Assembly: GCA_902984215.1 (NCBI GenBank)
Contig: CADWAF010004343.1
Span: 1-21,758 of the forward strand
DNA length: 21,758 nucleotides
From: Willaertia magna
Lineage: Eukaryota > Heterolobosea > Eutetramitea > Acrasida > Naegleriidae
Direction of reading: 5' to 3'
The notes beneath the pieces were generated by a model that saw only the letters and a program-made list of their open reading frames with translations, ran no database searches and was not told where the DNA came from. The translations under genes were made by a program, and so were the position numbers. Positions 1 to 20,835 of the stretch are shown piece after piece; within the stretch, counting starts at the first letter, position 1; every line of letters begins with the position of its first letter.

Positions 1-1411
1 ATGAACTAATTAATAAAAAAAAGAAAAATCAATAAATTTTAATAATAAACCAACAAATAAAAGACATGGAAATAATTATATATATAATAAAAAAAATCAG
101 AAATAGCTATATTAGTTTATTGTAAATGTTATTTAAAAGAATATAATTATAATTTTGTTTACATTTTTATTAGAAATGTCATTTAAAAAAAAAATATTAA
201 AAATTATTATTAAAAAATTGTTGTCTTTAAATAATGAATTTTTATAAAAAAAATTATTCAATAAAGTAAAATTTCTTTAAATAATTATTTTTTTTATTTT
301 TTTCTTTTTTTTAAATAAAATATTATCATTTTATAATTTAAAAACGTTAATAATTTTATAAAAAAAACAACAATTAATATTAAAAAACAATATTTTCAAC
401 TTTTAATATTTTAAACTTTAATTATTTAAAAAAGATTAATTATAAAAATAAAATAAATTTCTCTATTTTATTAAAAATTAAATAATATTAAAGTTTAAAA
501 TTTTTATTAGAATTATTATTTATATTTTTTAATTTTTTAGGCTTTTTTTATTAAAATAAAAATATATAATTAATTTTATGCAAATAAAATATTTTTATAT
601 AAATAATAAAAATTTTGTATCATTTTTTAATATTTTAAAAAAAAATTAAAATAAATTACTATTATTAATAACTTTATATTTTTTTAAAAAATTATTTACT
701 TTTAAAATCATAACATTAAATATAACATATTCTTGAATCTATTTATTGAATTATAATTTAAGATATATTAAATTATTTTTTAAAAAATCTTTTTAAATTT
801 TATTTAGATAATTATTTTTATTTTAATGATTTATTTATAAATATTTTTAACATTATTTGTATTATAATAAATAATTTTAAATGTTTTAATAAATAATGTT
901 TTTAAATAAATTATGAAAGTTAATTATTGTTTTAATTATAATATTTTATAAAAAACATAAAAAAATTTTAGCTTAAAAAGTATAAATTTATACAGTTTTT
1001 ATAATTTTAAAAATAAAATAAAAGAGTATAAATTTATACCTTTTTTATTCAACAAAAACAAAAAACAGTATAAATTTATATTGTTTTTGCTAATATTTTG
1101 ATGAATAAAAATGTTATTTTTATAAATGAAAAATAAAAATTTTATTAATTTAATTTAAAAACAAAATATTTTTACTTGTTTTAAACAAATTAAAATAATT
1201 TTAACATTAACATTAATAAATAAATGTTATTTATTACAAAAAACTGATATTTTTAACAAATTAAAGGTATTTTATTTTTTTTTATATTTTAACGTCTTTT
1301 AAATTTTAAATTTAAAACATACTCAAAAATTTTTAAACATTATTAATCATTTTCCTTTTGAAGTTTACCCGAGCATACTTTTTACGCACTAAATTTTACA
1401 GTACAAAAAAA
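1..1411. other. AT-rich non-coding region upstream of protease gene
   Basis: About 1.4 kb of extremely AT-rich sequence made largely of A and T runs. No open frame of useful length starts with ATG on either strand. It is much poorer in G and C than the coding regions. The only clear internal structure is a cluster of three copies of a 14-bp palindrome at 980-1081. Nothing else that I can read looks like a gene or structural RNA. It probably holds the promoter and 5' UTR of the protease gene at 1412, but I see no certain promoter element. Confidence 0.7.
980..1081. repeat. Three copies of a 14-bp palindrome
   Basis: The palindrome GTATAAATTTATAC occurs at 980-993 and 1026-1039. A third copy at 1068-1081 has one change in the last base. 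Spacing between starts is 46 and 42 bp. Each copy is flanked by an A-rich left arm and a T-rich right arm, so the inverted symmetry extends further; the third copy forms a near-perfect inverted repeat of about 26 bp. The cluster lies 330-430 bp upstream of the protease start codon. Homodimer binding sites, a hairpin in a long 5' UTR, or a chance product of AT richness are all possible. Three copies in about 100 bp make chance less attractive. Confidence 0.6.
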
Positions 1412-2683
1412 ATGAGAGATACAAGAACAGTTTGTGAAGTAATTTCTCATTTTGACCGCAATAGCTACGATGTAGTGAACGTTTCTGTGCTTGTGGTTAC
1501 AACAGAAGACACAATGTTCCTTAATACGAAACAAAATTTAGATATTGCAACTTCTGCTGCTCTTAATAACAAGCAAGATTCATTAATAACGGCTGCAAAG
1601 GGAGTTGTTAGAATTACCCAAAAAAAGAGCTTAATCTCAGGAACAGGCTTTTATTTGACTCCAGAAATTGTTGCAACTAATGGACATGTTTTAAATGATA
1701 TGGATCCCTCCGAATCCATGATATATTGGGGAAATGCAAGAACAAGAGAAATGGGCTTCTTGTTTGAACGGCTAGTTAAAAAGGAAATTACTGTTGAGGA
1801 ATGTATTTTGGCAGGACATGGACAGAATTTCAAAAACAGTAAAGTTAAAAGACCATCACTTGTTTACTTTGACGACAACGATTTACTAAAAGAGGCTGCT
1901 AATGACCCAGTTTTGGGATTTAAAGGTGATTATGATCTCTTTGACTTTACAATACTTAAGGTAATTCCCATTTCAAGGTTCCACAACGTTTTGTTTATCC
2001 CTTCAGCAGAAGAACTTGTAACTGGCGATCATATTGCTGTTTTGGGATATCCAGGCCATGAAGAGTTGAATTTAGATCATTACGAAAATTTTAATTTGAG
2101 TGCTGAGTATGTTGATTGGGTTCCTGAGTTTGAAAAACAAAAAGTTGCTTTTGGAGGTTTTGGACGTCTTTGTGCCAGTTTTGGATATGTACTTCCACAG
2201 TATAAGGAAAACTCTACAAGTGGATTATGGGAACAAGCAGGACAAGAAGATAAAAGATTTATCATTTCAAACGAAAATGTCTTCAAGGGAAGTTCTGGTA
2301 GTCCATTAATTAAAGTAAATTCATGTTATTCCCCAGAAAAGATTGACGGTTACAGTTTTGTTCCATTTAATGCAATTCACTTCTCAGGAGAATTTGTGGG
2401 ATGCAGTCAATGTTTAAAGGAATCAAAATTGTTAAGAAACATCGAGGCAAGTTCGACCTTTGGTTCGAGTAAATGGAAGTTTTGCAGTTGTTGCAAAAAT
2501 GAAAAAACACATGATAATTCTAGAGCATTTGCATATAACAGTTCTATTTCAGTTAATCACCCTCTCTTCATCAAAGCCTATGTTGCTTTTATTCTTCCAG
2601 AAATTGTAAAGTTGACAAATAATCAACTACCTTCAGCCCTAAAGGATTGGCTTGCCAAACATAAAGTTTCTGGTTACTTTTAA
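1412..2683 (+). CDS. Trypsin-fold (S1/HtrA-like) serine protease with Cys-rich insert
   Basis: Single-exon gene, 423 residues from the first in-frame ATG, which follows an A run as AT-rich protists prefer. The catalytic triad can be placed: His92 in TNGHVL after the GTGFYLTP strand, Asp178 in DYDLFDFTIL, and Ser295 in GSSGSP, which fits the GxSGxP loop. This is the trypsin-like fold shared by HtrA/Deg proteases and the Pfam Trypsin_2 group. No PDZ domain, signal peptide or membrane segment is apparent, so it is probably cytosolic or nuclear. After the active serine there is a segment with paired cysteines (Cys331/334 as CxxC, Cys358/360/361 as CxCC) that the core fold does not need; it may bind zinc. 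Substrate unknown. Fold confidence is good; proteolytic activity is inferred from the intact triad. Confidence 0.85.
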   Translation: MRDTRTVCEVISHFDRNSYDVVNVSVLVVTTEDTMFLNTKQNLDIATSAALNNKQDSLITAAKGVVRITQKKSLISGTGFYLTPEIVATNGHVLNDMDPSESMIYWGNARTREMGFLFERLVKKEITVEECILAGHGQNFKNSKVKRPSLVYFDDNDLLKEAANDPVLGFKGDYDLFDFTILKVIPISRFHNVLFIPSAEELVTGDHIAVLGYPGHEELNLDHYENFNLSAEYVDWVPEFEKQKVAFGGFGRLCASFGYVLPQYKENSTSGLWEQAGQEDKRFIISNENVFKGSSGSPLIKVNSCYSPEKIDGYSFVPFNAIHFSGEFVGCSQCLKESKLLRNIEASSTFGSSKWKFCSCCKNEKTHDNSRAFAYNSSISVNHPLFIKAYVAFILPEIVKLTNNQLPSALKDWLAKHKVSGYF

Positions 2684-3281: not shown

Positions 3282-4031
3282 TTAATGTTGTTGCTCGTCT
3301 TCCTTCTTTGTAATTTGGTTAATAGATTGTAGAGATGGCCTTTTCATGTTACTTTTTGGTTTAAGAGTTGGGGCAATAAATAGTTCACTCTCGTCAACAA
3401 ACGTTAATGGAATCTATTTTGTTAGATATTTTGTAAAGGACGTGAAGCAATTAAGTACTTACCCCGACGTTCTTTAATACATGGCAAAAATTAGGAAAAG
3501 AAAAGTTCACTTTAGATACAGTTTCATAAAGATCTTTCTTTTCCTTACTAGTGAAATCAGTTAATTGCAAATCTATCTTACACTTCTTTACGTATTTGCC
3601 GGCAATAGGCTGAACTGCAGGTGAATATTTTCTTTGAAATTGATGAAAGGAATACTCTGTCTTGGCATAATGAAGTTTAGGGGGAAACAAATTTAATTGA
3701 TGATCTAGTTCTTCTATTCTTGTTGAAATATTATCTAACCTTTCTAAGGCAAAATTATTTACTTTTTCTAAATGGTCCATCACCCTATTCAAAATACTTG
3801 GAATTTTCTCTCCTAGTTGTTTAAACATTAAATCCTTTTGATTTGATTCTGGAAAAGACACGGTAACAAAATTTAAAGTATCCTGTATTTCCTTTTCTAT
3901 TGCCTATATGAATTAAACAATTAATTTTTAATGTAAATAAAACTTACCTGTAAACCATTAATTCCGATCGCTAAACTTTCTTGTTCTACATCATCTACCC
4001 TTACCTCGCTTTCTTCTTCAACAGGCTTCAT
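3282..4031 (-). CDS. Three-exon coiled-coil protein, unknown family (218 aa)
   Basis: Exons on the minus strand: 3948-4031 (28 codons), 3463-3903 (147 codons) and 3282-3413 (43 codons plus TAA). Introns are 3904-3947 (44 nt, GTAAGT...ATAG) and 3414-3462 (49 nt, GTAAGT...ATAG, with a CTAAC branch-point-like motif). Both are phase 0, and joining keeps one frame throughout. The protein starts with an acidic segment (MKPVEEESE), then long amphipathic helices with heptad character around residues 28-110 (for example ALERLDNISTRIEELDHQL), and ends in a basic, polar tail. No catalytic motif, signal peptide or membrane segment is visible. The helical part faintly resembles the N-terminal helices of WASH/Scar/Abi-type proteins, but too weakly to name. 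It shares a 67-bp divergent promoter region with MSH6. Confidence 0.8.
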
Positions 4032-4098
4032 TTTTTGTAAATTTTTCTTTTAAAAAACCGGTTCTCGCAAGCGCTAGAATTTTTTAACGTGAAATAAA
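4032..4098. promoter_or_regulatory. Compact divergent promoter between coiled-coil gene and MSH6
   Basis: Only 67 bp separate the two start codons. Within otherwise A/T-rich DNA sits a GC-containing core with two 6-bp palindromes, ACCGGT at 4057-4062 and AGCGCT at 4070-4075, joined by TCTCGCA. Such a core in so short a spacer is the obvious place for a shared transcription-factor site. That it drives both genes is inference; no TATA element is evident. Confidence 0.5.
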
Positions 4099-7000
4099 AT
4101 GCCTGTCCAAACAAACCTGTACGATTTTGTTAAAAAGCCTTCTGCTTCATCTTCTAACAACAGTTCTACAACTTCAAATAAACCTTTAATATCGGAAGAA
4201 CAAAAACGTTTAGCTATGGAGAAGAGACAACAAAGAAAGAGTAGCGGCGATAGTCAAACAACTCTTCCTTTTACTAAACAAACTACGCTAAAAGTTCAAA
4301 CTCCTAATCCTAAAGATATAGCTATTAACGAAGAAGAAGAGACTTCATATACTGCACCGAAAAAGACAGTATTACCATCTCCTATAGGAGGTAAAAGTTC
4401 TTCTACAAAGAAAAAGAATACTTCAACAAAAAGAAAAAAACTAGACGACGATGACGATTTTAATCCTGAAGAAGACGAAGATGATGATTTTAATGGAATG
4501 GATTTAGATGAAGAGGAAGTAGAAGAAGAAGAAGTACCTAAAAAGAAAACTAAAAAGACCACAACTAAGAAGTCTACAAAGTCAACAAGTAAAAAATCTG
4601 CAACAAAAAGAACTACAAAAAAGAAGAAGAAAGATGAAAGTGACGATGATGACGATGGTAATTATAAATCTAAATATGCAACTACACAAAAGAAGAAGAA
4701 AAAAGATAAGGAAGACAGATTTCCTTTCTTAATAAATAGACAAGACGCAAATAGAAGAAAACCTGGGGATGAAGATTATGACCCTTCAACTCTATTTATC
4801 TCTACTGCCGATGAATGTACTTTAAGTGGTATGGAAAAACAATATTGGCAAATCAAAAAATATCACATGGATAAAATAGTTTTCTTTAAAAAAGGAAAAT
4901 TTTATGAATTATATGAAGAAGGTAAGTTAAATAATGTCACAATATAGTTGACCTTAATTTATATAATTTCAGATGCTGACATTGGAAAGAAAGAATTTGA
5001 CTTGAAAATGACTGAAAGAGTGAACATGAGAATGGTTGGTGTACCAGAAAGCTCTTTCAGAACTTGGGCAGCTAAATTTATTAATTTAGGTTATACAGTT
5101 GTTCGTGTAGAACAAATGGAAACTGCTGCAGAGAAAAAGAAAAGAAAAACTGAAAAAGGTTCAGCCAGTTCTTGTTTGGAGCGTAGTGTATGTGATATTG
5201 TAACCCTTGCCACAATTACTGATTTAGATTTATTACCTGATAGTTCTAATAATTATCTTTTATGCCTTAAAGAAGATATGATGAATCACAGATATGGTAT
5301 AACATTTGTAGATTTATCTACAGATAATTTTTTCATTGGTTATTTAGAGGATGACCAACATAGTACCCAATTCAATACATTAATTCACTCAATTAATCCA
5401 GTTGAAGTTTTATATGAACAAGGGCAGGTATCTGCAAATACTAAAAAGAATTTGAAAGTGAGTGAGAAAACATTTGTAAGACCAAAGAAGCCAACCCAAT
5501 CAGAAAAAGATTTTGCAGGTTTTCCATCAGCTGAAGTTACCAAAAGAGTATTAGAAATGGAAGATTATTTTCTTGATTCTACTTCCGGAAAAAACGAAAT
5601 TCCAGAAGCAATACAAAAGTTTTATAATAATGATATTGTTATGTCAAGCTTTGGATGTTGCTTGTTTTACCTTAAATACGTAAGTGTTAATTGTAATAGT
5701 TTTTAATTAATTCGATTGGTAGTTAAAAAAAGACGATGTTTTAAGAACTTCCAGTGCAACCTTTAAGGTTTATGATGGAAAAGTTGATATTGGTCACTTA
5801 ATTTTAGATGGACAAACTCTTGTCAATTTGGATGTTAAAATTAATTCTAGTACTGGTACAAAAGAAGGTACCCTCTTACAATTTATTGACCATACCTCTA
5901 CGGCTATGGGTAAGAGATTGCTGGAACAATGGGTTACTCGTCCTCTTAAGGATGTGAATGAAATCAACGACAGGTTGGATGCAATTGAAGATTTGGATAA
6001 TTTTGATGTTGATGGTATAAAGTCTGGACTATCTCAAATAAGAGATATTGACAGAATGTGCTCTTCTCTGTATAGAGAAGCAAGAAAAGAGAAAGAAGAA
6101 GTTATTTTCGATCCAAACGCTCCCAAAAGAAAGATTAAAACATATATCGACACTTTAGCCAACTTTAGAAAGTGTTATGATCTTATAAACAATTTACAAG
6201 ACCAAATTGGAAATATTAAATCAAATGCCTTAAAGAGAACACTTATAATTGACGATAATAGTGGTTTTCCAAATATTGATGAAATATTGTCAAGCTTCGA
6301 AAACAGTATAGATGTTGAAGAAGCTAAAGAAACAGGAATTATTGAACCAACAAGAGACCGTAAGTTTAATTGCTCTTAACCACTTTTTAATCCTAACAAT
6401 TCCACAGAAAATCCTGATTATTTTGAAATGGATGACGAGATGGAAACAATTAACAAAGAACTGGAAGATTTTTTGAGCGAAGTACAAAAGAAAATGAAGA
6501 GTAAAGATATTAAATATTCGAAACCAAAAAACAGTAATACATGGACTATAGAAATACCTATTGAACTTAAAGATAAAGTAATAGATGGTCTAAAGTATTC
6601 AAAAGCCAAGAAAAAATTTATTTCATATACTTCTCTCACTGTGGATAAAAAACTTGAACAATTAAAATTATTGGAAACTAAAAAGGAACAAATAAGAACA
6701 AGACAATTCAAATTTATTTTATCTAAATTTGGAGAACATGCTGCTATGTGGAAAAAAGTAGTTGATCGTATTTCTGAATTAGACTGCCTTATTTCTCTAT
6801 TTGCAGTTTCAAGAAGTGGAGTGTTTGTTAGACCAAGATTTATTACTTCTGAAAAACCAACTTTGAAGGTAACTCAATTAAGACATCCAACTGTAAAAAC
6901 AACTACATCAGAGTTTGTACCAAATAATATTACAATTGGAGATGATGATCCTACATGTATTATTGTAACTGGAGTAAGTAGTTTAAACTTTTTTATTTTA

Positions 7001-7832
7001 TTAATTCTTTTTTAAGCCTAATATGGGTGGTAAAAGTACAATCCTTAGATCTTCATGCATAGTTATCATATTAGCTCAACTTGGGTGTTACGTTCCTGCT
7101 GAGGATTGTGAAATGACAATAGTAGATAGAATTTTCACACGTATTGGTGCTAATGACAGAATAATGGCTGGTGAATCTACATTTATGGTTGAATTGACAG
7201 AAACATCAAACATTTTACGCCATGCCACTAAAAATTCTTTAGTTATTTTAGATGAATTAGGAAGAGGAACATCAACCCACGATGGTTACGCAATTGCTTG
7301 TGCAGTTGTCCAATATATTGCAGACTACATTGGATGTGCTTGTCTTTTCAGTACACACTACTATGAGTTGACTGAAGAATTAAAATTCCACCCCAACATT
7401 GCCATGTATCAAATGTTATGTGCTGTAGATAAAGATGAAGAAGGCAAAATATTAGAAGTAACATTCCTCTATGAATTCGTTAAGGGAGTATGTGAAAAAT
7501 CATATGGTATTCAAGTGGCAAAGAAAGCTGGTGTTCCAATAGAAGTTGTAGAGCAAGCATCTGCTATTGCTGAAGCATTTGAAAAGACAATGAGAGAGAA
7601 AAAACCAATATGTTATGATGATGTCACAGAAGAACAATATGAAATATTAGAAAGGGCTAAAGTATTTGCAACACAATTATCTCAAAATCCTAATATTGAT
7701 AGAGAAGAATTATTGGGAGCACTTAAAATTCTTCAATCAGAAATTTTAAAGAGCTACAGTAGTTATACTGCATTAATAGAAGAAAAGGAAGCAATAGAAA
7801 ACTTACCAATGGAAGAAGAAGAAATTGAATAA
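4099..7832 (+). CDS. MSH6: DNA mismatch repair protein MSH6 (MutS-alpha subunit)
   Basis: MSH6 pairs with MSH2 to recognise base mismatches and small loops in the nucleus. Five exons (4099-4921, 4973-5679, 5723-6359, 6408-6973, 7017-7832) join in frame to 1182 residues; introns are 43-51 nt with GTAAG donors. Visible features: a PCNA-interacting box at residues 4-11 (QTNLYDFV); a long disordered tail (about 12-215) of alternating acidic and Lys-rich runs that should act as nuclear localisation sequence; the mismatch-binding FYE motif at 268-270; Walker A GPNMGGKST at 911-919; Walker B LVILDELGRG with Asp990-Glu991; and the STHYYEL switch with His1025. The FYE motif separates MSH6 from MSH2. 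I see no PWWP domain. Length is close to yeast MSH6. The first intron interrupts the codon just after the FYE segment. Confidence 0.97.
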
Positions 7833-7994
7833 GTTATTCTATTTATTCAATCCATACTACTTACTATTTGTAAACATATGTATAACGTTATCAAATATGA
7901 TGTGTTTGTAAAGAATTATAAATCATAATCCCACAATTCATCATTCCACGAAAAACAACTTCAACAAAAAATTTAAAAAAATTAAAAAAAAAAA

Positions 7995-9503
7995 ATGCTT
8001 TCAACACATTCCACATTAAAAAAAACTTTCCGAAGCAACAACAATCTTTTCTTTTTAAACAATCACAACAACAATAATATCTTGTGTAAAAGTATTAAAA
8101 ATAATAAAAATAACAATATAAAATACTTTTCAACACATTTAAATCATTTACATAAAAAAAAAACAGAAACAACAACTATTCATATAAAATATGATCCAAG
8201 AAAAGAAAAGGCTCCAAAAAAACATTTTATTGAACAACAAATACAAATAAATAAAATAAATTCAACACAAAATACAATTAATGAATTTAATGATTTAATT
8301 TTAGAAGTTGATGTAAATAAAATTACAAAAGATTATTTAATGGATTTGGATAAATTTTATTTAAACAAATTACAAACAAATTTACAAACAAATTTAAAAG
8401 ATAGTTTACAAAATAATAATTTACAAAGTAATTTACAAAATAATTTAAAAGATAAATTAATGAAACCAATTGAAAATAAAGAAGAAATATTTTTATTTAA
8501 TAATTTAATGGATAAAAATTTTATTTTAAAAAGTAAAGAATTTTTACAAAAACATAATTTACAAAAAATACCAATTTCAATGTTCATAAAAGGAATGACA
8601 CATATTTCCTTTTTAACACCAACAAATAATAATAATAAAAATTATTGTAATGATGATTTTCAATTAATTGGTGGACAATTATTTACAACTCTTTGTAATA
8701 AATTTATGTATTTATTTTTAAAATTTAGAGAATTTAAAAATAAAAATTTAGAAAAGAATTTAAGATGGTTTTTAGAAGATGCTTTAAAAGTTGAAAAGAA
8801 AGATATTTTATATGATATGCAATTTAATTTTTTTAATAAATTAAGAAATGATATTATGGTTGCTTGTTTAAATAAAATTGAATTAAATAATTTTGTATTA
8901 TTTGATACAAATAGAATTAAAGAAGAATCTAATTATTTTTTATTAAATAATAATGATAGTGGTGATGATGATAAACTTGTTGGAAAGATTAGTATTGAAA
9001 CACAATTAGAGTTATTAGCAAAGGCTAATGCATTTCGTAGTTTATTATATTTAATTGATACATATTATGATTTTGAAACTTGTTCAAAATTTTTTGAGAT
9101 GAATGTTCTTCCTACAATGGTTGAATATATTCAAAGAGAAACTTTAGTTTTAGATGAAAATACTCATTATCCAGAATTATTATTTAATTTTTTAAATGAA
9201 AATAAAGAATTAAAAGATAAATTTTATATTGAATATAGATTTTTAAATGAATTTAGAGATATTGATAATAAAAAGAAGATATTAGTTGGATTATTTGTTA
9301 ATGATAAAGAATGGGAAAGTGAATTAGCTTTTAATTACACAGAAGCAAAGTTTTTGTTAGCAAAGAGATTTTATGAATCTTTACGAAGAAATCCAGTGAG
9401 AATGAGACACTTAGTTCAATCAATTTCAAATATTGCCTATGTTCACTCTTTAGAGAAATTGACAGAACAACCTAAACATAAGAAGAGAGTAAAAAAGGAA
9501 TAA
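7995..9503 (+). CDS. Hypothetical Asn/Lys-rich protein, probably mitochondrial (502 aa)
   Basis: Single-exon gene of 502 residues, starting at an ATG after a long A run, 162 bp downstream of MSH6 on the same strand. The N-terminus (MLSTHSTLKKTFRSN) is rich in Ser, Thr and basic residues with no acids, and a second such stretch near residue 45 (IKYFSTHL) looks like a presequence end, so mitochondrial import is plausible. Residues 1-160 are low complexity. A Leu-Gln-Asn repeat occupies about 127-155 (units like LQTNLQTNL and LQNNLKDKL). From about 180 on the sequence is mostly predicted helix without low complexity and is probably a folded helical domain. I do not recognise a family and see no catalytic motif. 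The tail is basic (KKRVKKE). Confidence 0.8.
   Translation: MLSTHSTLKKTFRSNNNLFFLNNHNNNNILCKSIKNNKNNNIKYFSTHLNHLHKKKTETTTIHIKYDPRKEKAPKKHFIEQQIQINKINSTQNTINEFNDLILEVDVNKITKDYLMDLDKFYLNKLQTNLQTNLKDSLQNNNLQSNLQNNLKDKLMKPIENKEEIFLFNNLMDKNFILKSKEFLQKHNLQKIPISMFIKGMTHISFLTPTNNNNKNYCNDDFQLIGGQLFTTLCNKFMYLFLKFREFKNKNLEKNLRWFLEDALKVEKKDILYDMQFNFFNKLRNDIMVACLNKIELNNFVLFDTNRIKEESNYFLLNNNDSGDDDKLVGKISIETQLELLAKANAFRSLLYLIDTYYDFETCSKFFEMNVLPTMVEYIQRETLVLDENTHYPELLFNFLNENKELKDKFYIEYRFLNEFRDIDNKKKILVGLFVNDKEWESELAFNYTEAKFLLAKRFYESLRRNPVRMRHLVQSISNIAYVHSLEKLTEQPKHKKRVKKE
8373..8459 (+). repeat. Short Leu-Gln/Lys-Asn tandem repeat within the 502-aa protein
   Basis: The DNA repeats imperfect units of about 12-15 bp around TTACAAACAAAT and TTACAAAATAAT, ending in TTAAAAGATA. 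It encodes residues 127-155 as repeated N-L-Q/K units. It is probably a replication-slippage expansion in a low-complexity linker. Confidence 0.6.
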
Positions 9504-9521: not shown

Positions 9522-12500
9522 TTAATCTTCATATGCAAATGCAAATAATTCAACATCACGTTTCATCTTGGTTTGTTTGAATTCTGGTAATCTGTTGAAT
9601 TCTCCCTTAGACATCTTGAAAATCTTCATAAAGTCAGAGTCACTTAAATATTGTTCACGTTTGTTTGCATCAACACCAGCTGGATATTTCTTTTGTTTGT
9701 TGTTCTTTAATTCTTCATAAGAATAATAAGCAGATGGACCAGTTTCAACATCTTCAAGAACAGAACCAGATACAGCACCAGCACTACCTACTGAATTCAT
9801 TAAACTTTGAAGTTTTGCTTGAATAAGACCACCCTTCTTAAACTTCATAGTATCAAACATCTTTAATTCTTCTTCTTCTTCCTTAGAAATTTGTTTAGGT
9901 TTTGGAGTAATCTTCAATTTTGGTGCAGTATTAACTGGGGTAGTTGTTGGTTGTTTATTTGCACCAGTAGTAGGCTTATTACCATTTTGACCTGCTGTCT
10001 TTCTTTCTGCTTGTTTCAAATAACTACCATAGTAGAATTCAGTGGTTCTCTTACTTTGATCTCCCCATCTTAAGGATTCTTGGAAGCCGAAACCTAAATA
10101 AGAAGAAACTGGTACTTCGAATTTCCACATCTTAATCTTTGCTAATCTATCTTCTAATTTCTTCTTTTCTAAACGAATTTGACGATAAGTGGCATTTGGA
10201 TTTTCAGCTAAAAAGTCTCTTGCTTCTTCTGCAAAGTCTTGAATTGCTCTCTTTTCTTCTTCTGTTAAATTCTTTTGTACTTGTTTATTCTTTGCTAATA
10301 CTTCTAAAACTCTGTCTGCGTAATTCTTTAGGTTTTGTGCTGCTTCTTTATCGTCAAAGATGTTATTAACAACATTTTCTAATTGTTTTCTCTTAAGTGC
10401 AATATCATTAAGTGTAGCATTTGGATTCTTCTTTAACCAATCAAGAGTAGATTGTACCTTTTCATCAATGGTCTTCTTTTCTTCATTTGACAAAGTGCTT
10501 GCCAATTCTTTATCATTCTTTAATTTATCTCTAACATTGGTTGCAAATGTTTCAAGATCTTTCTTTGCTTGAGCACGATCAATGATTGGTGAAATCTTTT
10601 GTTCTAATTGACGTTGTTGAGATTCAACTTCTTTTAATGGTGCATTCTTGTTCTTAGTTAACCAATCTAAGGTTTTTTGTGTTTCTTGGTCAACTAATTT
10701 CTTTTCTTCTGGTGATAATTTATCCTTTAATTCATTATTAGCTCTGTTACGAATGTTTGTGGCAAAGTTTTCTAAATCTCTGTGTTTTTCAGCTCTTAAT
10801 AATGATGGTTCAACCTTTTCTTTAGTTTCACGTTTCTTTTCCTTGATTTCGAATAAAGATGCATTTGAACCTCTTGCATTAATGAAATCTAAAGCATCCT
10901 TTGCTGCATTGTCAATGGTCTTCTTTTCAGTAGCAGTTAATCTTTGTGCCAATTGATCATCATTGTTTACCTTATCACGAACAGTGGTTGCATACTTTTC
11001 TAAATCTTTTCTTGCTCTTGCCTTTTCAACTACTGGATTAACCTTATTCTTTAAATCATTTAATTTATCCTTAATTTGTTCGACAGAAGTGGTTGGTTTG
11101 TTTGCAACAGTATCTAAAAAGTCTAAGGATTCATTGATTGCATTTTCAACTTGCTTCTTTTCTTCTTCAGTTAGAGCTAAACCACTGACATCTGAATCTT
11201 GTTGAATCTTTTCTTTTAATTTTTGAATTTCATCTTTCAAGTTTTGTCTTGCCTTTGCCTTATTGATAATTGGATCAACTTTTTCTCTACATTCTCTTTC
11301 CTTGTCCTTAATTTGATTCTTATTTGCAGTTGTAACATTGTTATCAATCCAATCAAGTAAATCTTGAGTGGAATCTTCAATAGCCTTCTTTTCTTCTGGA
11401 GTAAGAGATTGAATTAATTTGGTATCATTTTGTAATTTATCTTTAATTTCATTTGCATATTGTTCTGCATCTCTTGCCTTTTCTGCTTTGTTGATAATTG
11501 GGAATACTTTACTTTCTAAGATGTGTCTCTTTTCTTCAATCTTATTCTTAGAAGCATTAGGATTAGTATCCAAGAAATCAATTGCTTCATCAATTGAGGC
11601 TTCAATAGCTTTCTTTTCTTTATCATTTAATTTACCACCAAGATCATCGTTATCATTAATACGACCACGTAATTCATTGGCAAAGTTCTTTAATTTGTTT
11701 CTTGATTCAGCTTTTTCAATTATTGGTTCAACCTTATCTTGGAATTGTTTCTTTTTCTTAGTAATTTCTTCCAAAGTTGCATTTGGATTGTTATCTAACC
11801 AATCGATTACTTCTTGAATTTCAGAATCAATTAACTTTCTTTCGTTATCATTAAGAAGTGAGGTTAATTCAACATCTTCTTCCATTCTTTGTCTTAAGTT
11901 TTGTGCCATATTTTGTAATTCTCCCTTTTCTCTTGCTTTTTGTAAAATTGGTTCAACCTTATTTGCCAATTCTTTCTTTTTCTTTTCTACAGCATCTAAT
12001 GAGGCATTCTTTCCTTCTCTATCAATCCAATCTAATATTTCATTAACAGCATTGTCAATTAACTTCTTGTCATTATCATTTAGGTTATCATATACAATGC
12101 TACGTTCATCTCTGATTTGATCACGAATACCTTTTGCGTAATCACGTAAACCAGAACGAGATTTAGCTGCTTCAAGAATAGATGCCGTGTCTTTCTTTAA
12201 GTTTCTTGTCTTTTCTTTAATTTCAGGTGCAGTTAAGGATGGATTGTTGTCAATGAAATCTAAAACCTCTTGAGTAGTGAAATCAATCTTTTTCTTTTCT
12301 TCATCATTAAGGAAATCTCCAAGTTTTGATTCATCTTGTTCGAAGCTATCAAATTTAGCATGTCTTCTCTTACTAAAGTCGTTTGTAGCATCATCTTTCT
12401 TTTGTTTTTTGCCAACAATTACATCTAATATATTGTCGAACTCTTCATCTAAAGACTTGGTTTCATGGGATGCATCCTTTGTAGTAACATCTAAAGAGAA

Positions 12501-15500
12501 ATTGTCAAATACTTGTTCTCTGATATCATGAACTAAATCACGGAGCTTTTTACGTTCCTTAACCTTATCAACTATTGGTTTAACATTCTTGTTTAATTCC
12601 TTTTCTTTTTGTTTAATATCTTTTGCGGTAATATTTTGATTCTTGTCCAAATATGCGATGGTTTCATTAGCTAAGTCCATAACTTCATCACGTTCAGTAT
12701 TAGATAACATTCCACCAAGACCACCTTCTCCAAATTTGTTAAGGTCCAATAATAAATCTTTTGCCTTTCTGTATAAACCACCTTTTGCAGAAGCCTTTTC
12801 AACTAATCCTTTGGTTTTTTCATCTAACTTTTGTTGAGCATTAACTACTTCAGTTAGTGAACAATTTGGATTCTTTTCAAGGAAATCTAAAGCTTCTTGG
12901 GTTGCATCCTTAATTTGTTTCTTTTCCTTGTCATTAAGATATTTTCCTAAGTCATCATCAAGATTTACAATTCTATCACGTAATTCATTTGCTTTTTGTT
13001 CTAAATTAGATCTCTTTTCAGCAGTTTTAATGATTGGAGCAATGTGTGATTCAAATTCTTCTAACTTTTGTTGTAATTCTTTTGTAGTTGCATTTGGATT
13101 TTGTTCTAAGAATTTATTGAATTCTTCAACCTTGGTTGCTAAGTATTGACGTTCTTCAGGAGTAGTATTCTTACATAATGATGAATCCTTATCATCTAAT
13201 TTACGAATCAAATCATTAACCTTACTTTCTAATTGTTTCTTCTTATTGATTCTATCAGTAACAGAAGCAACAGCTTGATTGAATTTTTCTTTTTGTTTCA
13301 TAATTTGTTCTTCATTTGCTTCAGGATTCTTAGTCAAGAAATCGTCAATATGCTCTTTCTTTGCTTTCTTAACTAACTCCTTATCCTTTGGTGTTGTGTA
13401 CGGATCTTCTTCAACATCATTTGCTACTCTTTCTCCATAATTACTGAGTTCTGATCTTGCTTTTGCATTTTGGATAATTGGTCTTACTTTTTCATTGAAA
13501 TCATCTTCTGCCTTTCTTGTTTGTTCAATGGTTGGTTTGTTCTTTAATAACTTTTCAATTTCATCAATTGACTTTTCAATTAATTGCTTTTCTTTTGGTG
13601 ATAGGAATTTACTTAATTCTGGATCATCTTTTACTTTATCTCTAACATTAGATACGAGATCTTTCAATGCATCAATTTCTCTGACCCTTTCAAGAATTGG
13701 ACGAACCTTTTCATTTAACTTGTTTCTTTGTTCTTCAACTTTCTTAGGTGTTGCTTCAGGATTCTTTTGAATAAAGTCAACAACCTCATTAATTGCTGTT
13801 TCAATTGCTTTCTTTTCTTCTGGTTTAAGTTTACTAACGAAATCATTGTCATTCAATCTTTCTCTTAATTTACCAGCATAATCGTTTAATTGTTTTCTTT
13901 GTTCAGCACCATCAATAATATCTTTAGTTTTGTTGACAAATTGTTTTTCTCGTTCTTCAATTTGTTTTGGTGTTGCCTTCTTGTTCTTTAATACCCAATC
14001 CTCAATTTCATTAATTGCAAGTTCCAATGCCTTCTTATCCTTTGGAGAAATATATTTTCCTAAATCATTGTTGTCATTAATACGTTCTCTAATTTCCTTG
14101 GTAGTGTCTAATACTCCTTTTCTCTTTTCTGCCTTTTCTAAAACAGGTACTAATTTTTCTTTTAATTCTTTCTTCTTGTTGTTAATATCTTCAGCAGTAA
14201 ATTTACTAGGATCTTTTTCAACTTTCTTTAAGAAGTCTTCGCTATCCTTAATTTCCTTTAAGATTTGACGTTTTTCAACCTCATCAATCAAATCACCTAA
14301 ATCATCATTATCTTCAATTCTTTTTCTAATTCTGTGATTGTATTCATCCAATGCATTGTGAGCATCACCTCTTGAAATATATGGATCAATCTTTTGCTTA
14401 AGTCTTGTTTTTTGTTTTTGAATATTTTCAACATCAATATTTGGATTATTCTTGATAAATCTGTCAAAGTCGTCAAGAGCAGTTTCAATAGCTTTTCTTT
14501 CCTCAGGTGTTAATCTTGCTCTTAATGCTTCATCGTTATTAATACGATCTCTCATATTTGACGCATAGTCTAATAATTCTTTCTTTTTCTTTGCCTTTTC
14601 AAGAACTGGGTCAATACGTTTCTTGGCTTCTTCTAATTTTTCTTCTAATTCAGTTGCTGTAGCATTAGGATGTTCAGATAAGAAATCATCAATATCCTTT
14701 AAGGTATCATGTAAAGTACCCTTATCTTCGTCACCTAATAAATCGAATAACATATCTTCATCATCAGAAATCTTCTTTCTTAAATTATGTGAATAATTTT
14801 CTAATTCTTGTCTGTTGTTTGCTCTTGCAAGAATTGGTTTAATCTTTGACATTAATTCTCTTTCTTTTGCTTCAATTTCTTCTTTGGTTGCATTTGGGTT
14901 TGCTTCTAACCATCTTTCTAATTCGTCAAGAGCTTGTTCTAATTCTTTTCTTTCCTCAGGTGTTAAATTTTTGATTAATTCAGGGTCATTTACTAAACGA
15001 TCTCTTAAAGCAGAAGTAAGATCAGTAATAGCCTTTCTTTCTTTCTTGTTTGAAACTATTGGGTGTAATTCTTTATCTAAATCCTTTCTTCTTTTGTCAA
15101 TTTCTTGTGGAGTAGCATTAGGCTTATTCTTTAAGAACTTTTCTGCATCTTCTAATTCTTCTTGAATTAATTTTAATTCTTCATCATTTAAGTGATCACG
15201 AATACCAGAATCATTAAATGGACTGATTAACTCTCTATAGTCATTAATTTGAGATTGTAATTTATCCTTTGCTTCATTTTGGTCTTTTGATTCGTCAAAT
15301 CCTTCTGGATAAATTTCATCCCAATCAACTTCGTCATCTTGAACAGCTCCTCTTCTTTTCTTTGTGACATCGAAGGCATCTTGTTCTTTATTCTTTGTTT
15401 GTTCAAGCTCAGCTCTTTTTCTTTCTCTTTCCCTTTCTTCTTCTGCCTTCTTTTTCATTTCTTCTTCTACCTTTTTCTTCTTTTCTTCTTCAATTTTTTG

Positions 15501-17696
15501 TCTTTTCTTTTCTTCTTCTTCTTTCTTTTTACGTTCTTCTTCTTCCTTACGTTGTCTTTCTTTTTCTCTTTCTTCTCTTTCTTTTCTTCTTCTTTCTCTT
15601 TCTTCTTGTTCTTTTTGTTCAATTTCTCTTTCAAGTTGCTTTCTTCTACGTTTAATATCAATTCTTTTAGCTGCAACAATAATTTTACCATAAGGTAAAT
15701 CTGTTTCGTCACCATATTCACCACCTCCAGATGATGTTCTTTCTTCATCGTCAACATTTAATTGAGGCTTACTATAATCAAACAAGTCATTAGTTACTGG
15801 AATATCTTCATCTAAGGTATTATACAATTTGTTTGGATTTTCTAATTGTTCAATTTCATCAAGAGTAATCTTTGGTTCTAATGGTTCAACTGGAACTGGT
15901 GGTTGTTCTTCTTGTTGTTCATTACCTCCAGCTTCTTCTTCAGCTGCTCTGGTTGCTTCTTCTAAATCTTTCTTACTAATTGCTCTGTCTTTCTTTGATT
16001 TTGGTTCTACTTTACCACCTCCAATTAAGGTTAACAATGGTTTTAAACCACCTAATTTACGAATAACAGTTTTGTTAACGTCATCATTTGACAAATTCCA
16101 TAAAGCACCAGCTGCATTCATTTGAATATTTTCATTTGGGTGATATAATAATTCAATTAAAGCAGCAATACCATCAAGTTTACGAATAGCAACACGATTT
16201 TCAATATTATGTGTTAAGTTAAGAATTGCTGCAGTATCTTTTTCCAAGAGTTCATCATCATAATCTACACGTAATAATTCTAATAATTCACCTAAAGCTC
16301 CACATTCACGAATTTCATCCTTATTCTTATCGTTGTAAGCTAAAATTGCAAAACCAATAATTGCATATAATACACATTTCTTATGTTGTTCATTTTCAAT
16401 ATTTCTTTGGTCAACCTTTCCTGAAATAATTGCTTGTAATGGTTGGAAACCACCATTTTCACGGAATTGATTTGCAAAATCATCACTTGCACAACTTGTT
16501 AAAACTGCACCTAATACTTTTTCCAAAGCTTCATAATTATTTTGGAATGCTTCTAATAATGGAACTAAAGAAGGCATGGTATCCAAAGTAGCTAAAAGAT
16601 TTCTATTCTCTTCATTGTGTGACAAATTCCATACAGCTGCAGCAGCATTTTCACAAATTTGACCATCTTCATGAGATAATAATTTCACAATTAAAGGGAA
16701 TGCTCCATCAATATTTCTTAAAGTATCACTAACTGTATCATTTGAACTAAGAATTGAAATACACATAACACTATTTGCCAAAGTTTCAACATCTTCATCA
16801 GAACTTTGTAAAATAGTAACGAGTTTTTCTAAGGCTCCTTCATTTGATAAGGCTTCTCTTGTTTCATCGGAACCAACACTTAAATTCCAAATTGCTCCTG
16901 AAGTACGATTTCTACATTCTGGATCATCTGACTCTAAGCCTGAAATAATAAAAGGTAAAGCACCTTCCTTTACAATATCTTGAGTAAATTGAGGATCAAA
17001 ACAAATTTGAGCAATAGCTCCAATCGTATTTTTTTTAACTTCGGAATTTGTAGATTTTACGCATTGCGCCAAAATCTTTGCTCCGTCATTGGCTGTAACT
17101 AATTCTCTAGTTTCTTCATCAGAAGCTATTATTTGTTTGTTTGTTTGTTTGTTTAATTTAATAAATTAAATATGTTCATTAATTGAAATATATTAAATAA
17201 TTGATAGAAGTAGAGTAAATTTGTTGACAAATAATTTTTAATATTAACTTACCTAAATTTAATAATGCACCAGTACCATATTCTAAAGTAACTTCATCTT
17301 TTTGACCATCTAATAATTTAAGAATTGCTTCAACACCACTATATTCTCTAATATCTTCTCTACATTGGTCATCATTTGCTAAATTTAATAATGCACCTAA
17401 AGCTTGTCTTGGAATACGGAAATCAGTTTTATCATCTAAACATCCAACTAAATTTGCAATACCACCTGCATTTCTAATTTCTTCAACAGCTTCTGGATCA
17501 CTTGCTAATGAAAATAAAGCACCAATTGCTGCTAATCTGTTTTGAACAGATCCAGTTTTAATTTTATTGAGCGTTCCCTTTACGTCACCTATTATTAATA
17601 AGATTATTAATAAGATTATTAATAAGATTATTAATTGTTAATAATTGCGTAAAACCGATTAATATCAATTATTGATAAATAATAAAACTTACTCAT
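9522..17696 (-). CDS. Giant ARM / Hsp70-lid-repeat / villin-headpiece protein (2647 aa)
   Basis: Three exons on the minus strand: 17693-17696 (only ATGA), 17253-17588 and 9522-17125, joined in frame to 2647 residues. Introns are 104 nt (17589-17692) and 127 nt (17126-17252), both GTAAGT...TAG and phase 1. Domains: about 11 armadillo repeats at 1-481 (recurring GALLNLA and WNLS helices); an acidic/proline linker; a Glu/Arg/Lys coiled coil at about 597-696; about 22 tandem repeats of about 75 residues at 733-2444 that match the eukaryotic Hsp70 C-terminal lid; a Thr/Pro/Lys linker; and a villin headpiece at about 2583-2641. No Hsp70 ATPase or beta-sandwich domain is present. Likely a cytoplasmic actin-bound scaffold, with ARM repeats holding a partner and the lid repeats forming a long helical rod. 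Reading frame and domains are seen; the rod and scaffold role is inference. Confidence 0.93.
9543..9647 (-). other. Villin headpiece subdomain of the giant protein
   Basis: Residues 2607-2641 align gap-free with the 35-residue villin headpiece: LSDSDF, then IFKM, EFNRLPEFKQ and a terminal LF. The three core phenylalanines (headpiece positions 6, 10 and 17) and the central Pro are kept. A YPAGVD segment and Lys-Arg-Glu lie just before, as in full headpieces. Headpieces bind F-actin. Differences: the capping Trp is Phe, the Gly before the last Leu-Phe is Glu, and six residues follow the usually terminal Phe. Confidence 0.9.
10134..15269 (-). repeat. About 22 tandem Hsp70-lid-like repeats (protein level)
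   Basis: Encodes residues 733-2444. Each unit reads: a Tyr/Phe-Ala-x-x-(Leu/Ile)-Arg-(Asp/x)-(Arg/Lys)-(Ile/Leu) helix, an acidic turn (NDDDL), L-(T/N)-x-E-E-K-K-x-I, a helix ending (D/E)-(F/W)-(L/I), the turn NPNAT, a helix E-I-x-x-K-x-x-x-L, and (V/I)-x-P-I-(I/L)-x-K-A. This order and spacing is that of the eukaryotic Hsp70 lid, with its YAYNMR, LSPEDKKKIE, WLD-N and NPII motifs. Units are 70-80 residues and clearly diverged from each other, so the array is old rather than freshly expanded. Unit 13 carries an insertion of about 55 charged residues. The repeat count comes from reading by eye and could be off by one or two. Confidence 0.88.
16023..17588 (-). other. N-terminal armadillo-repeat domain of the giant protein
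   Basis: Residues 2-481 contain about 11 ARM repeats of 40-46 residues, recognised by recurring helix-3 segments GALFSLAS, GALLNLAN, GALLNLAS, GAIWNLSV, AAVWNLSH, AAILNLTH and GALWNLSN, and by intervening Gly-Gly-Leu/Ile turns. Repeats 8 and 9 are more divergent and contain an extra loop (around SGKVDQRNIENEQ). ARM superhelices bind extended peptides and helices, so this is the probable cargo or partner-binding end. The domain is split by the second intron, inside the NLASD of repeat 3. Confidence 0.93.
17132..17154. repeat. (TTTG)n microsatellite in intron 2 of the giant gene
   Basis: Five perfect TTTG units followed by TTT, lying just inside the 3' end of the 127-nt intron (read as CAAA repeats on the coding strand, immediately before the AATAATAG acceptor). 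It could lengthen or shorten by slippage. Confidence 0.9.
17591..17635. repeat. 12-bp tandem repeat in intron 1 of the giant gene
   Basis: Three exact copies of ATTATTAATAAG (17591-17602, 17603-17614, 17615-17626) and a partial fourth. They sit directly against the splice acceptor at 17589-17590 of the 104-nt intron that follows the four-base first coding exon. The two introns of this gene are the only ones here above 51 nt, and both contain simple repeats, so slippage probably lengthened them. Confidence 0.9.
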
Positions 17697-18126
17697 CTCA
17701 ATAATATTATTTTTTTTTGATAAGTTAATTGTCAACGCTTGTCAAAACAAATAAAAATTTTCTTGGCCATGTTTTTACGTCTCAAACTCCCCACAAATAT
17801 AACTACTAAAGGAAATCAATCTTCAACTATTATACAACTACAAAGGGAGAAGATATTTGTAGTAGATGTTTCTACAAGTAACATCTTTCAAATCAACTAT
17901 TATTAGAAAGGAATTTAGCAACCAAGATGTCCTGGACAGCAGCACAAACAGCACATAAATTGACCTCAAATAAATTTCAAAAAAAAAAAAATAAATAGTT
18001 TTTTAATTTTTAAAAATTTCTAGCTTTTGACTTTTAATAATTTGAACAAACATCCGTTCATTAGTAGCGTTGTTTGACGGTATAATAATAAATACAATAA
18101 ACAAATAACAATAATAACAACAACAA
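17697..18126. other. Divergent intergenic region between the two giant/F-box genes
   Basis: 430 bp between the start codons of the ARM/Hsp70-lid/villin-headpiece gene (minus) and the DCX/F-box/SPRY gene (plus). The edges are A/T-rich, as other non-coding DNA here. The centre (about 17760-17970) is noticeably richer in G and C and holds the small plus-strand open frames listed separately. The outer parts should carry both promoters; no certain element is visible. Confidence 0.5.
17769..17998 (+). CDS. Possible small two-exon gene (66 aa) or short ORFs
   Basis: An ATG at 17769 opens 45 codons ending at TAG 17904-17906. If a 29-nt intron (17878-17906, GTAACA...TTAG) is removed, the frame continues through KRNLATKMSWTAAQTAHKL to TAG at 17996-17998, giving 66 residues. 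The N-terminus (MFLRLKLPTNITTK) is basic and acid-free, like a mitochondrial presequence. Against it: the intron would be shorter than any other here and has a weak donor. Alternatives are a gene starting at the ATG at 17927 (23 codons), or an upstream ORF in the 5' leader of the next gene. No family recognised. Confidence 0.25.
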
Positions 18127-20835
18127 ATGGATTCATCTCCAAGCCATCAACAACAACCTTATGGTTATTATGAAGAATATAATAATCATTCTTTTTCTAG
18201 TAATAACAATAATGATATAACTGAACACTCTAACAAAATTAATAATGATTCCCGATATAACATGTTTATACATCATCATAACAATAATAATGAACACCAT
18301 CACCACCAACATAGCGGTTCGCCATACCCTCATCATAATAACCATCATCATAGCGGTATCTTATACTATAGTAGTAATCCAAATAATGAACATCAAGGCT
18401 ATCATCATCCTATCTATAGAGGTTATGATAACAACACTTATTATACAACTACCGCGGCAACTGCTTTATTCAATAATCAACAACAAGATGAAGACGTATT
18501 TGATTATAATGTAGATCAATTCTTTACTCCTTCTTCTTCTCATCATGCTGCCCATCATCATACTTTCTCTCATTTCCATCCAACAACAATGAATACAACA
18601 ACCTCACCAACAACCTTAAATTCTTTACAATTATTTAGACCAATGATTAGAATCCACGTTTATCCAAATGGTACTTTACAATACGGAAAATGTTTGACTT
18701 TTGATCCTTTTCAAACATCTTTTGAAGAATTGCTATTAATGATTTCACGAAAATTTAAATATAATATGATATTGCCAACTACAACTGCAAATAATAACAA
18801 TAGAAATAATGAAATAATAGAAGAACAACAACAACAACCAATGGTACTAACGGCAGGAAATAATATTAATCGTACAAATAGTGGAAATAATCTTAACAAT
18901 CTTTTAGCTAACAGTTCAAGTGGAAATACTAATAATAACAATACCTCATCTTCTTCCCCTCTACCTCAACAACAACAACAACCAATAAGATTCATAAATA
19001 GCGCTAGAAGTGAAAGAGAAAGTGATGGATTACTACCTAAACTATTTACCCTTAGAGGAACTGAAGTTGACCATATAAATCAAATCGTAAATAATGATAT
19101 TTTTTGTTTTGTACTTCCAACAGAACCTTTTAGACCGCCAATAAGCCTTGAAAGGGTAATTTTAAATAATTTGGATTCTAGTCAATCGAAGCCTTATTTT
19201 TATTCAAGTAATTATTATGGGAGTGGAAATAATGATGTGGGGGTTGGTACAACTACGGCTAGTAATAATGGTAATGCGCAAACGATGGTGGCTACGGGTT
19301 CTTGTTCTTCTTCTTTAAATAATAATTTTAATAGTGAATTATTTGAGGAAGAGAGTAATAATACAATGTCTTCTAAAAATATGATGGGAAGAAGAAGTAA
19401 TAATAATTCTAGAGAAAATTTAGATAATATAACGAATACAAATAATATACAAGTTGATCAACAACAAATTCATGAAACTGTATATTCCACACCAAAGAAG
19501 AATGGTAAAGTAGGACCAACTTCTTTAGAAATTTCAAATAATAACAATACTTCAGCAAGCGCTACAGTTCGCTCACCTCCAATACAACTTTCTGTACATA
19601 GACAATTTCATACCATGCCACCTACCGTTCCTGTAAATTTAAATATGGCCATGGTTGACCCATTTTCCCCTACAACAACTTTACATTTTGCTTCACCTAA
19701 TCACTTAAATTTTACTACTTCAAATATCCCGCCACAATCTACAGTTAGAATAATCAAAAAAGAAAAACATTTTATTAGATTAATACCAGAACTTTATTTT
19801 TTAATATTTTCATTTCTTTCACATAAAGATCTATGCCTTGGTGTAGGTTTAGTTTGTAAAGAATGGGATAGAGAATACGCTAGAAATGATATTATATGGA
19901 AAGAATTATGTATGAATGTTTACTGCTATTATGTTAAAAGAAAGTTTTATAAAAGTGGTACAGATAAGATTACAAAGTTTTTTGCAACATGCAGTTTGAA
20001 TGAATTAAAAAAGAAATTTAATGAAGCATGTGAAAAACCACCATGTTATTATAAATCATGGAAAACTTATTATAGATATTTTATTAATTGGTCTTTAAGA
20101 ATAACATGGGATACATGTGAAAGAGGAAATAATATTAAATTTAAAAATAATAATGCTACTATATATAGAGATGATAATATAACTTATCATTGGCAAACAA
20201 TTAGAACTAACATTCCAATAAGAATACCAACTGAACAAGAAAAACGTAAGAATGGATATATGTCACTTCCAGTTACTTCTCCATTTGAAACAAGTGATGA
20301 AGAACCTGATATTATAACTGATGATGTTTCAATTTATGAATTTGAAATTAAAATTGAAAAATTTGATAGATCTAATGCAAATGGTTGGTGGATTGTAATT
20401 GGTTTAGAAACTGAAATGTTTCCTTATAAAGAATCTACACCAACAAATTTAATTGGTTATGATCGTCATGGAGGGTTTGGTTATGGTGGAAATGGTGATT
20501 CTTTACACTTTTATTCTAATACCCACTTAAAACATAAACAAGCCTTTACATGTGATCCTGTAATCCCATGGTCTAATGTTACAAGCTCTTTTAATGAAGG
20601 TGATATTATTAAATGTAGAGTAAAACATTATACAAAAGCCTTTGAAGATGCAATTGACCCAAAGAACAATATTGGAGCTACCTTATCTTGGTTTTTAAAT
20701 GGTAAATATTTGGGACAATGTTTTAGAAATATTACTGGAACTCTATTTCCAGCGGTATCTCTTTTAACTAATCAATGTGTTACTTTAAGGAATGTAGATC
20801 CAATGTTAAAATTATTGATGAAGGATTTTGAATAA
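18127..20835 (+). CDS. Doublecortin-like / F-box / SPRY fusion protein (902 aa)
   Basis: Single exon, 902 residues, starting at an ATG in a CAACAACAAATGG context. Residues 1-165 are His/Asn/Gln-rich. Residues 172-332 form a doublecortin-like fold: IRIHVYPNG, GKCLTFDP, SFEELLLMISRKF, then after an Asn/Gln/Ser insert of about 90 residues (212-303), LFTLRGTEVDHINQI and DIFCFVLP. Residues 340-540 are low complexity. An F-box lies at about 550-600 (LIPELYFLIFSFLSHKDLC, CKEW, WKELC), which should bind Skp1 in an SCF ubiquitin ligase. A SPRY domain at about 735-890 (GWWIVIGL, GYGGNGDSLHFYSN, LSWFLNGKYLG, LFPAVSL) would bind substrate. F-box plus SPRY recalls FBXO45; the doublecortin part is not found there. 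Doublecortin domains bind microtubules, so a microtubule-linked adaptor is inferred. Confidence 0.9.
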   Translation: MDSSPSHQQQPYGYYEEYNNHSFSSNNNNDITEHSNKINNDSRYNMFIHHHNNNNEHHHHQHSGSPYPHHNNHHHSGILYYSSNPNNEHQGYHHPIYRGYDNNTYYTTTAATALFNNQQQDEDVFDYNVDQFFTPSSSHHAAHHHTFSHFHPTTMNTTTSPTTLNSLQLFRPMIRIHVYPNGTLQYGKCLTFDPFQTSFEELLLMISRKFKYNMILPTTTANNNNRNNEIIEEQQQQPMVLTAGNNINRTNSGNNLNNLLANSSSGNTNNNNTSSSSPLPQQQQQPIRFINSARSERESDGLLPKLFTLRGTEVDHINQIVNNDIFCFVLPTEPFRPPISLERVILNNLDSSQSKPYFYSSNYYGSGNNDVGVGTTTASNNGNAQTMVATGSCSSSLNNNFNSELFEEESNNTMSSKNMMGRRSNNNSRENLDNITNTNNIQVDQQQIHETVYSTPKKNGKVGPTSLEISNNNNTSASATVRSPPIQLSVHRQFHTMPPTVPVNLNMAMVDPFSPTTTLHFASPNHLNFTTSNIPPQSTVRIIKKEKHFIRLIPELYFLIFSFLSHKDLCLGVGLVCKEWDREYARNDIIWKELCMNVYCYYVKRKFYKSGTDKITKFFATCSLNELKKKFNEACEKPPCYYKSWKTYYRYFINWSLRITWDTCERGNNIKFKNNNATIYRDDNITYHWQTIRTNIPIRIPTEQEKRKNGYMSLPVTSPFETSDEEPDIITDDVSIYEFEIKIEKFDRSNANGWWIVIGLETEMFPYKESTPTNLIGYDRHGGFGYGGNGDSLHFYSNTHLKHKQAFTCDPVIPWSNVTSSFNEGDIIKCRVKHYTKAFEDAIDPKNNIGATLSWFLNGKYLGQCFRNITGTLFPAVSLLTNQCVTLRNVDPMLKLLMKDFE

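Follow-up and report, generated by a model that had tools for sequence, protein, structure and literature searches.

Hsp70 chaperones are among the most conserved of proteins, and their lid is known as the chaperone's C-terminal portion, followed by a disordered tail that in cytosolic members carries the EEVD motif bound by TPR co-chaperones. Long rods are known from other systems, such as spectrin, whose repeats measure ~106 residues and whose rods carry an actin-binding module at one end, and the giant staphylococcal surface rods Ebh and Embp, which are bacterial and extracellular. Here we describe a gene of the heterolobosean amoeba Willaertia magna, found in a window of 21,758 nucleotides (the whole stretch analysed, positions 1 to 21,758 of contig CADWAF010004343.1, assembly GCA_902984215.1), whose product contains a tandem series of 22 homologues of the Hsp70 lid, flanked by armadillo repeats on one side and a villin headpiece on the other; we consider it probable that this giant protein is a long helical rod tethering a partner to actin filaments.

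The giant gene

The gene lies on the minus strand, running from an ATG at 17696 to a stop codon at 9522-9524, and comprises three exons, separated by GT..AG introns, that together encode 2,647 residues. The spliced product is identical in every letter (100%) to a hypothetical protein held by NCBI for the species (ABK040_000242, hereafter P0001). An extract of PMC6892926 presents W. magna as a free-living amoeba related to Naegleria. A preliminary description, made from the letters of the window, had singled out the interval 9522..17696, which corresponds to the entire gene from start codon to stop codon.

17693..17696, minus strand: exon 1, consisting of the ATG and the first base of codon 2, with a GT..AG intron; product matching NCBI P0001
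17253..17588, minus strand: exon 2, armadillo repeats (Pfam Arm 2.9e-9)
9522..17125, minus strand: exon 3, with the remaining armadillo repeats, a probable helix rich in E, K and R, 22 of the 22 lid units, a linker, the headpiece and the stop

Twenty-two units related to the Hsp70 lid

All 22 units, each ~75 residues long, are contained in exon 3.

10113..15272, minus strand: array of 22 Hsp70-lid-like units, residues 732-2451, based on profile, PDB ranking and models
12156..12557, minus strand: unit 13, residues 1637-1770, with ~56 extra residues past helix 1, or else a decayed unit and then a full one

An iterated self-profile returned 23 matches: 22 score strongly, between 52.8 and 84.3 bits, and the remaining one, at residues 1641-1684, is broken and reaches 1.7 bits. 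We take this broken match for helix 1 of unit 13, separated from the remainder by the extra residues; the alternative is a decayed 23rd unit with a full unit following it. These figures agree with the earlier estimate of about 22 tandem units at residues 733-2444, placed between ARM repeats and a villin headpiece, both of which score above their Pfam cut-offs. The units have diverged considerably, with a mean identity among them of 30%.

When the 22-unit profile was compared with the PDB, Hsp70 lids occupied rows 1-16 of 54, with E-values from 1.2e-15 to 3.9e-8; the next row stood at 0.015, leaving a gap of more than 5 orders of magnitude behind the weakest lid, and lids thus rank first where another helical family might have been placed above them. 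The same profile locates the lid of a W. magna Hsp70 at residues 537-608. On the Hsp70 lid of its own genome it scores 51.2 bits, whereas the reversed profile scores -1.9, and 100 column permutations run over four Hsp70s reached at best 6.3 on the same bit scale; because reversed and permuted profiles fail, the lid match is not due to chance. Furthermore, a three-unit query of the species' own 19.2-Mb genome matched only the giant gene and one Hsp70 lid (1.3e-12).

No more of the chaperone than its lid is present. The Pfam Hsp70 model PF00012 matches neither exon 2 nor exon 3 (E ≤ 1), and the contig of the giant gene is absent from its matches in the genome (E ≤ 0.001), which bears out the initial observation that both the ATPase domain and the substrate-binding β-sandwich are missing; moreover, the protein ends in AFAYED, with no EEVD tail. 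Because the PF00012 match and the EEVD tail are both absent, the giant protein is not an Hsp70 and carries only the Hsp70 lid.

A lid origin has to be weighed against what individual units show. Taken singly, they give only weak Pfam matches, and FIVAR is more frequent among these than HSP70: at E ≤ 1, seven of the 22 units match FIVAR (lowest E 0.0019) and three match HSP70 (lowest E 0.015, none reaching E ≤ 0.001). Over exon 3 as a whole, FIVAR has no match at E ≤ 1. The units could therefore be imagined as members of another three-helix bundle family (FIVAR, GA, Ebh or Embp modules) that came to resemble the lid by convergence. We rejected this explanation as highly improbable: the weak unit-level matches are outranked by the Hsp70 lid in both profile and structure comparison, and the aligned structures of the FIVAR/GA rods Ebh and Embp are 9-16% identical to the units, with the sequence profile favouring Hsp70. 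Profile comparison thus identifies the 22 units as homologues of the Hsp70 C-terminal lid, even though no Pfam family exceeds its own cut-off over the array, which leaves some 1,720 residues without any such assignment.

Predicted structure and joints

AlphaFold models of the units (predicted local distance difference test, pLDDT, 94-96) contain the three-helix topology of the lid, and a predicted unit superposes on the BiP lid with a deviation of 1.1 Å over 73 residues, so that the lid fold first suspected from sequence motifs is also the predicted one. How the units may be connected is suggested by the model of three consecutive ones.

11247..11930, minus strand: units 15-17, modelled as a triplet (AlphaFold2 pLDDT 94.3, predicted template modelling score, pTM, 0.79)

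In this model, whose input consisted of six non-overlapping triplets of the giant protein (alignment A3), helix 3 of each unit is fused with helix 1 of its successor into a single helix of 40-41 residues (53-92 and 128-168). An alignment of 17 overlapping triplets was misregistered (404 columns) and was set aside; no model was made from a further alignment, in which a single triplet was combined with all five full-length sequences described below (A4).

The joint is 12 residues long at 21 of the 21 measurable junctions (of 22) in the giant protein, and it stays constant while the length of the unit interior varies from 60 to 67 residues. On the models, the joint is helical and fixed and the loops vary, as a rod would require; with an advance of ~3 nm per unit, estimated from helix lengths, a straight array would extend over roughly 65-70 nm. 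The initial suggestion that the lid was reused in the manner of spectrin repeats has in this way gained an anatomy, in the form of predicted continuous helices between units and constant joints, while rod function itself we continue to infer. As for spectrin as the identity of the units, this was rejected: Spectrin is not among the 10 Pfam families that match exon 3 at E ≤ 1, nor among the fold-search matches listed, a result that is compatible with structural likeness.

The same architecture in related proteins

The protein search covered 5.8 billion proteins, from which only the 7,992 candidates with the most words in common were scored. With the full-length query it returned five proteins including P0001, 5/5 of which possess Arm and VHP domains; the other four are as follows.

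P0002: ENA protein, 61%, 22 units
P0003: Naegleria lovaniensis, 57%, 22 units
P0004: N. fowleri, 55%, 22 units
P0005: JGI/NCBI protein, 28%, 23 units, labelled DnaK in one source

The architecture initially proposed from the W. magna window alone is accordingly also that of two Naegleria species, P0002 and P0005. In P0002, P0003 and P0004, the best match of each unit is the same-numbered unit (22/22 in every case), and the match to unit 13 is again only partial. This conservation bears on the possibility that the array is an artefact of assembly or gene modelling. Tandem repeats can be misassembled, but the units are only ~30% identical to one another, NCBI holds an identical protein model, and the same 22 units follow each other in the same order in both Naegleria species and P0002; we give this possibility next to no credence and dropped it, as 22 units are common to three relatives.

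P0005 corresponds clearly to the giant protein at its first and last units only. Its whole array aligns with the others better in the natural order than after shuffling, which reached the same level in 4 (P0001), 5 (P0003) and 21 (P0002) of 500 trials; once the first and last units are left out there is no signal, with 216 (P0001), 209 (P0003) and 235 (P0002) of 500 shuffles doing as well. Mean identity of the internal units is 28.9% between P0001 and P0005, much the same as the 30.2% within P0001 and the 27.2% within P0005, and either independent remodelling or saturation of the internal units may account for this.

A query with units 14-21 found three JGI fragments containing several units each and one Closterium Hsp70 (6e-6). 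The fragments (P0006-P0008, 354-467 residues) are made of lid units; P0006 and P0007 are near copies of each other, and P0008 is more divergent. With P0005 as the query, only P0005 itself was found, and in scans of IMG/VR none of the pattern matches (34 for units 14-21, 56 for P0005) was confirmed as a relative. Leaving out the broken match, 12-residue joints account for 20/21 junctions in each of P0001-P0004 and for 19/22 in P0005; the fragments have them at 6/6 (P0006), 4/4 (its near copy P0007) and 3/5 (P0008) junctions.

Flanking domains and probable actin binding

The array is framed by the following elements.

16011..17125, minus strand: armadillo repeats of exon 3, to about residue 485, an end point read from the sequence
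15396..15668, minus strand: E/K/R-rich stretch, residues 600-690
9756..10112, minus strand: linker from array to headpiece, residues 2452-2570, parts of which are conserved in the orthologues (alignment consensus)
9543..9716, minus strand: villin headpiece with both subdomains (Pfam VHP core 9543-9650)

The armadillo repeats occupy about residues 1-485 and score above the Pfam cut-off (Arm 8.2e-35 in exon 3, in addition to the exon 2 match given above); their best natural relatives in the PDB are Vac8 (5.5e-22) and outer dynein arm-docking subunit 2 (2.5e-20). The E/K/R-rich stretch includes the most charged 60-residue segment of the protein, which is 90% charged and pairs opposite charges at i/i+4 in 39/56 positions, a pattern that makes a single stable α-helix likely.

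At the C-terminus, the headpiece is recognised by Pfam VHP (6.7e-14, above cut-off) and, across both subdomains, by villin-1 HP67 (2.5e-9). In villin, according to an extract of PMC2879411, the actin motif is LKKEK, and a hydrophobic cap and a basic crown serve F-actin binding. The position of this motif is taken by MKRDV in the giant protein and by LKKNA in P0005. In 5/5 proteins (P0001-P0005), K65, K70 and K71 are each kept as lysine or arginine, but the cap residue W64 is F in 5/5 of them and K73 is replaced by V or A. Because K65, K70 and K71 are kept but K73 and W64 are changed, binding of the headpiece to F-actin is likely rather than secure. The gelsolin family is not among the 10 Pfam families matching exon 3 (E ≤ 1).

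The W. magna genome contains 3 VHP matches. A second very long open frame with a villin headpiece has 1,906 residues (L023, C468:21471-21578), in which the three-unit lid query gives no match.

Proposed function and origin

A single lid of the cytosolic Hsp70 lineage may have been captured and then duplicated. Each unit is predicted to fold as a three-helix lid bundle whose last helix continues as helix 1 of its successor, much as spectrin repeats are joined. The partner would be bound at the armadillo repeats and F-actin at the headpiece; the E/K/R stretch would be a rigid helix that, together with the lid array, makes up a long, largely rigid spacer. On balance we also favour the wider proposition that the lid, freed from the ATPase, fused head to tail via continuous helices and multiplied to 22, represents an independent second answer to spectrin in an actin-tethering heterolobosean giant, with arrays of different internal units in other microbes.

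Being homologous to part of a chaperone, the units might serve less as a rod than as a platform on which partners or clients of chaperones dock, their many copies presenting co-chaperones with many binding faces that the headpiece would place on actin; structures of Hsc70 lid-tail fragments in complex with the TPR domain of CHIP are known (title of PDB 4kbq). We regard such a platform as unlikely, since an inter-unit identity of ~30% is unlike one repeated binding face and the constant joints suggest geometry. The giant protein also has no counterpart of the EEVD tail that serves TPR co-chaperones. We also consider it unlikely that the array works as an extensible spring or a sensor of tension, with units that bend or unfold when load acts between the partner and actin. 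The row of three-helix bundles, whose helices are fused in the model, does recall spectrin, which is elastic, and unit conservation differs between species; however, the anatomy of a spring would be the same as that of a rod and mechanics alone would differ. A rod that tethers a partner to actin thus remains our preferred interpretation.

Other frames in the genome and the window

Two further frames of the genome are Hsp70-like (L003 on C429, 525 residues, and L004 on C626, 621 residues), and in them the unit profile finds no lid (nothing better than E 0.14); the L003 frame ends before the lid, yet its C-terminus is EDVD. These may be natural lid-less Hsp70s in the very genome that carries the lid array, and a Hsp70 relative without a lid has been described (extract of PMC10299296). 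An Hsp110-like frame (L005, C647) has two lid-like stretches, at 615-680 (E 0.0021) and 699-784 (3.4e-7).

Within the window, the giant gene has these neighbours.

1337-2683, plus strand: trypsin-like peptidase domain (Trypsin_2 1.4e-8)
3451-3903, minus strand: short frame with a sub-threshold HSBP1 match (0.0093)
4093-7832, plus strand: same-strand frames resembling exons of one MutS-family gene, the last of which (7005-7829) matches MutS_V at 1e-72; the N-terminal QTNLYDFVKK motif suggests what we take to be MSH6
7986-9503, plus strand: 505-residue frame, tail to tail with the giant gene and 18 bases from its stop, with no Pfam match at 0.01
18118-20835, plus strand: Q/N/H-rich protein with an F-box-like match (7.2e-7) and a sub-threshold SPRY match

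Comparison with known systems

In line with the view that no protein with tandem lids had been described, none was listed in the literature searched, most subscription journals being outside its coverage. The main text of two Willaertia omics papers leaves villin, armadillo and HSP70, as searched, unmentioned, and the second of them speaks of heat shock proteins only in a general way. The giant protein and its relatives may already be marked in domain databases that include a superfamily model for the lid, as the JGI name of P0005 hints.

In this array the lid stands alone, in 22 copies with fixed joints whose order is kept from Willaertia to Naegleria. If the models hold, it is an autonomous, stackable module that offers structural biology a natural lid-based rod, and the amoebae of both genera possess a giant candidate linker to actin.

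By its kind, the tandem three-helix rod, this molecule is familiar; what is unexpected is the module, the Hsp70 lid. At its N-terminus it resembles Vac8 and outer dynein arm-docking subunit 2 (ARMC4) through its armadillo repeats, and we know of no lid array or headpiece in either protein. With villin/dematin-type proteins it shares the C-terminal headpiece, which is instead preceded by armadillo repeats and the lid array and has F for the W64 of the cap. Closer in design are the rods of spectrin, α-actinin and dystrophin, which likewise consist of tandem three-helix bundles, with a helix predicted through the joint and an actin module at one end; unlike in spectrin, the units measure ~75 residues and are related to the Hsp70 lid, and the actin module is a villin headpiece. 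Finally, the lid of eukaryotic cytosolic Hsp70 and BiP (SBD-α, 10-kDa subdomain; PDB 2p32, 3lof, 2lmg and 5e84) has the same profile, helix order, motif spacing and predicted fold, whereas the giant protein lacks the ATPase domain, the substrate-binding sandwich and the EEVD tail, repeats the lid 22 times in tandem and, where Hsp70 has its tail, is predicted to continue by a direct helical joint into the next lid.
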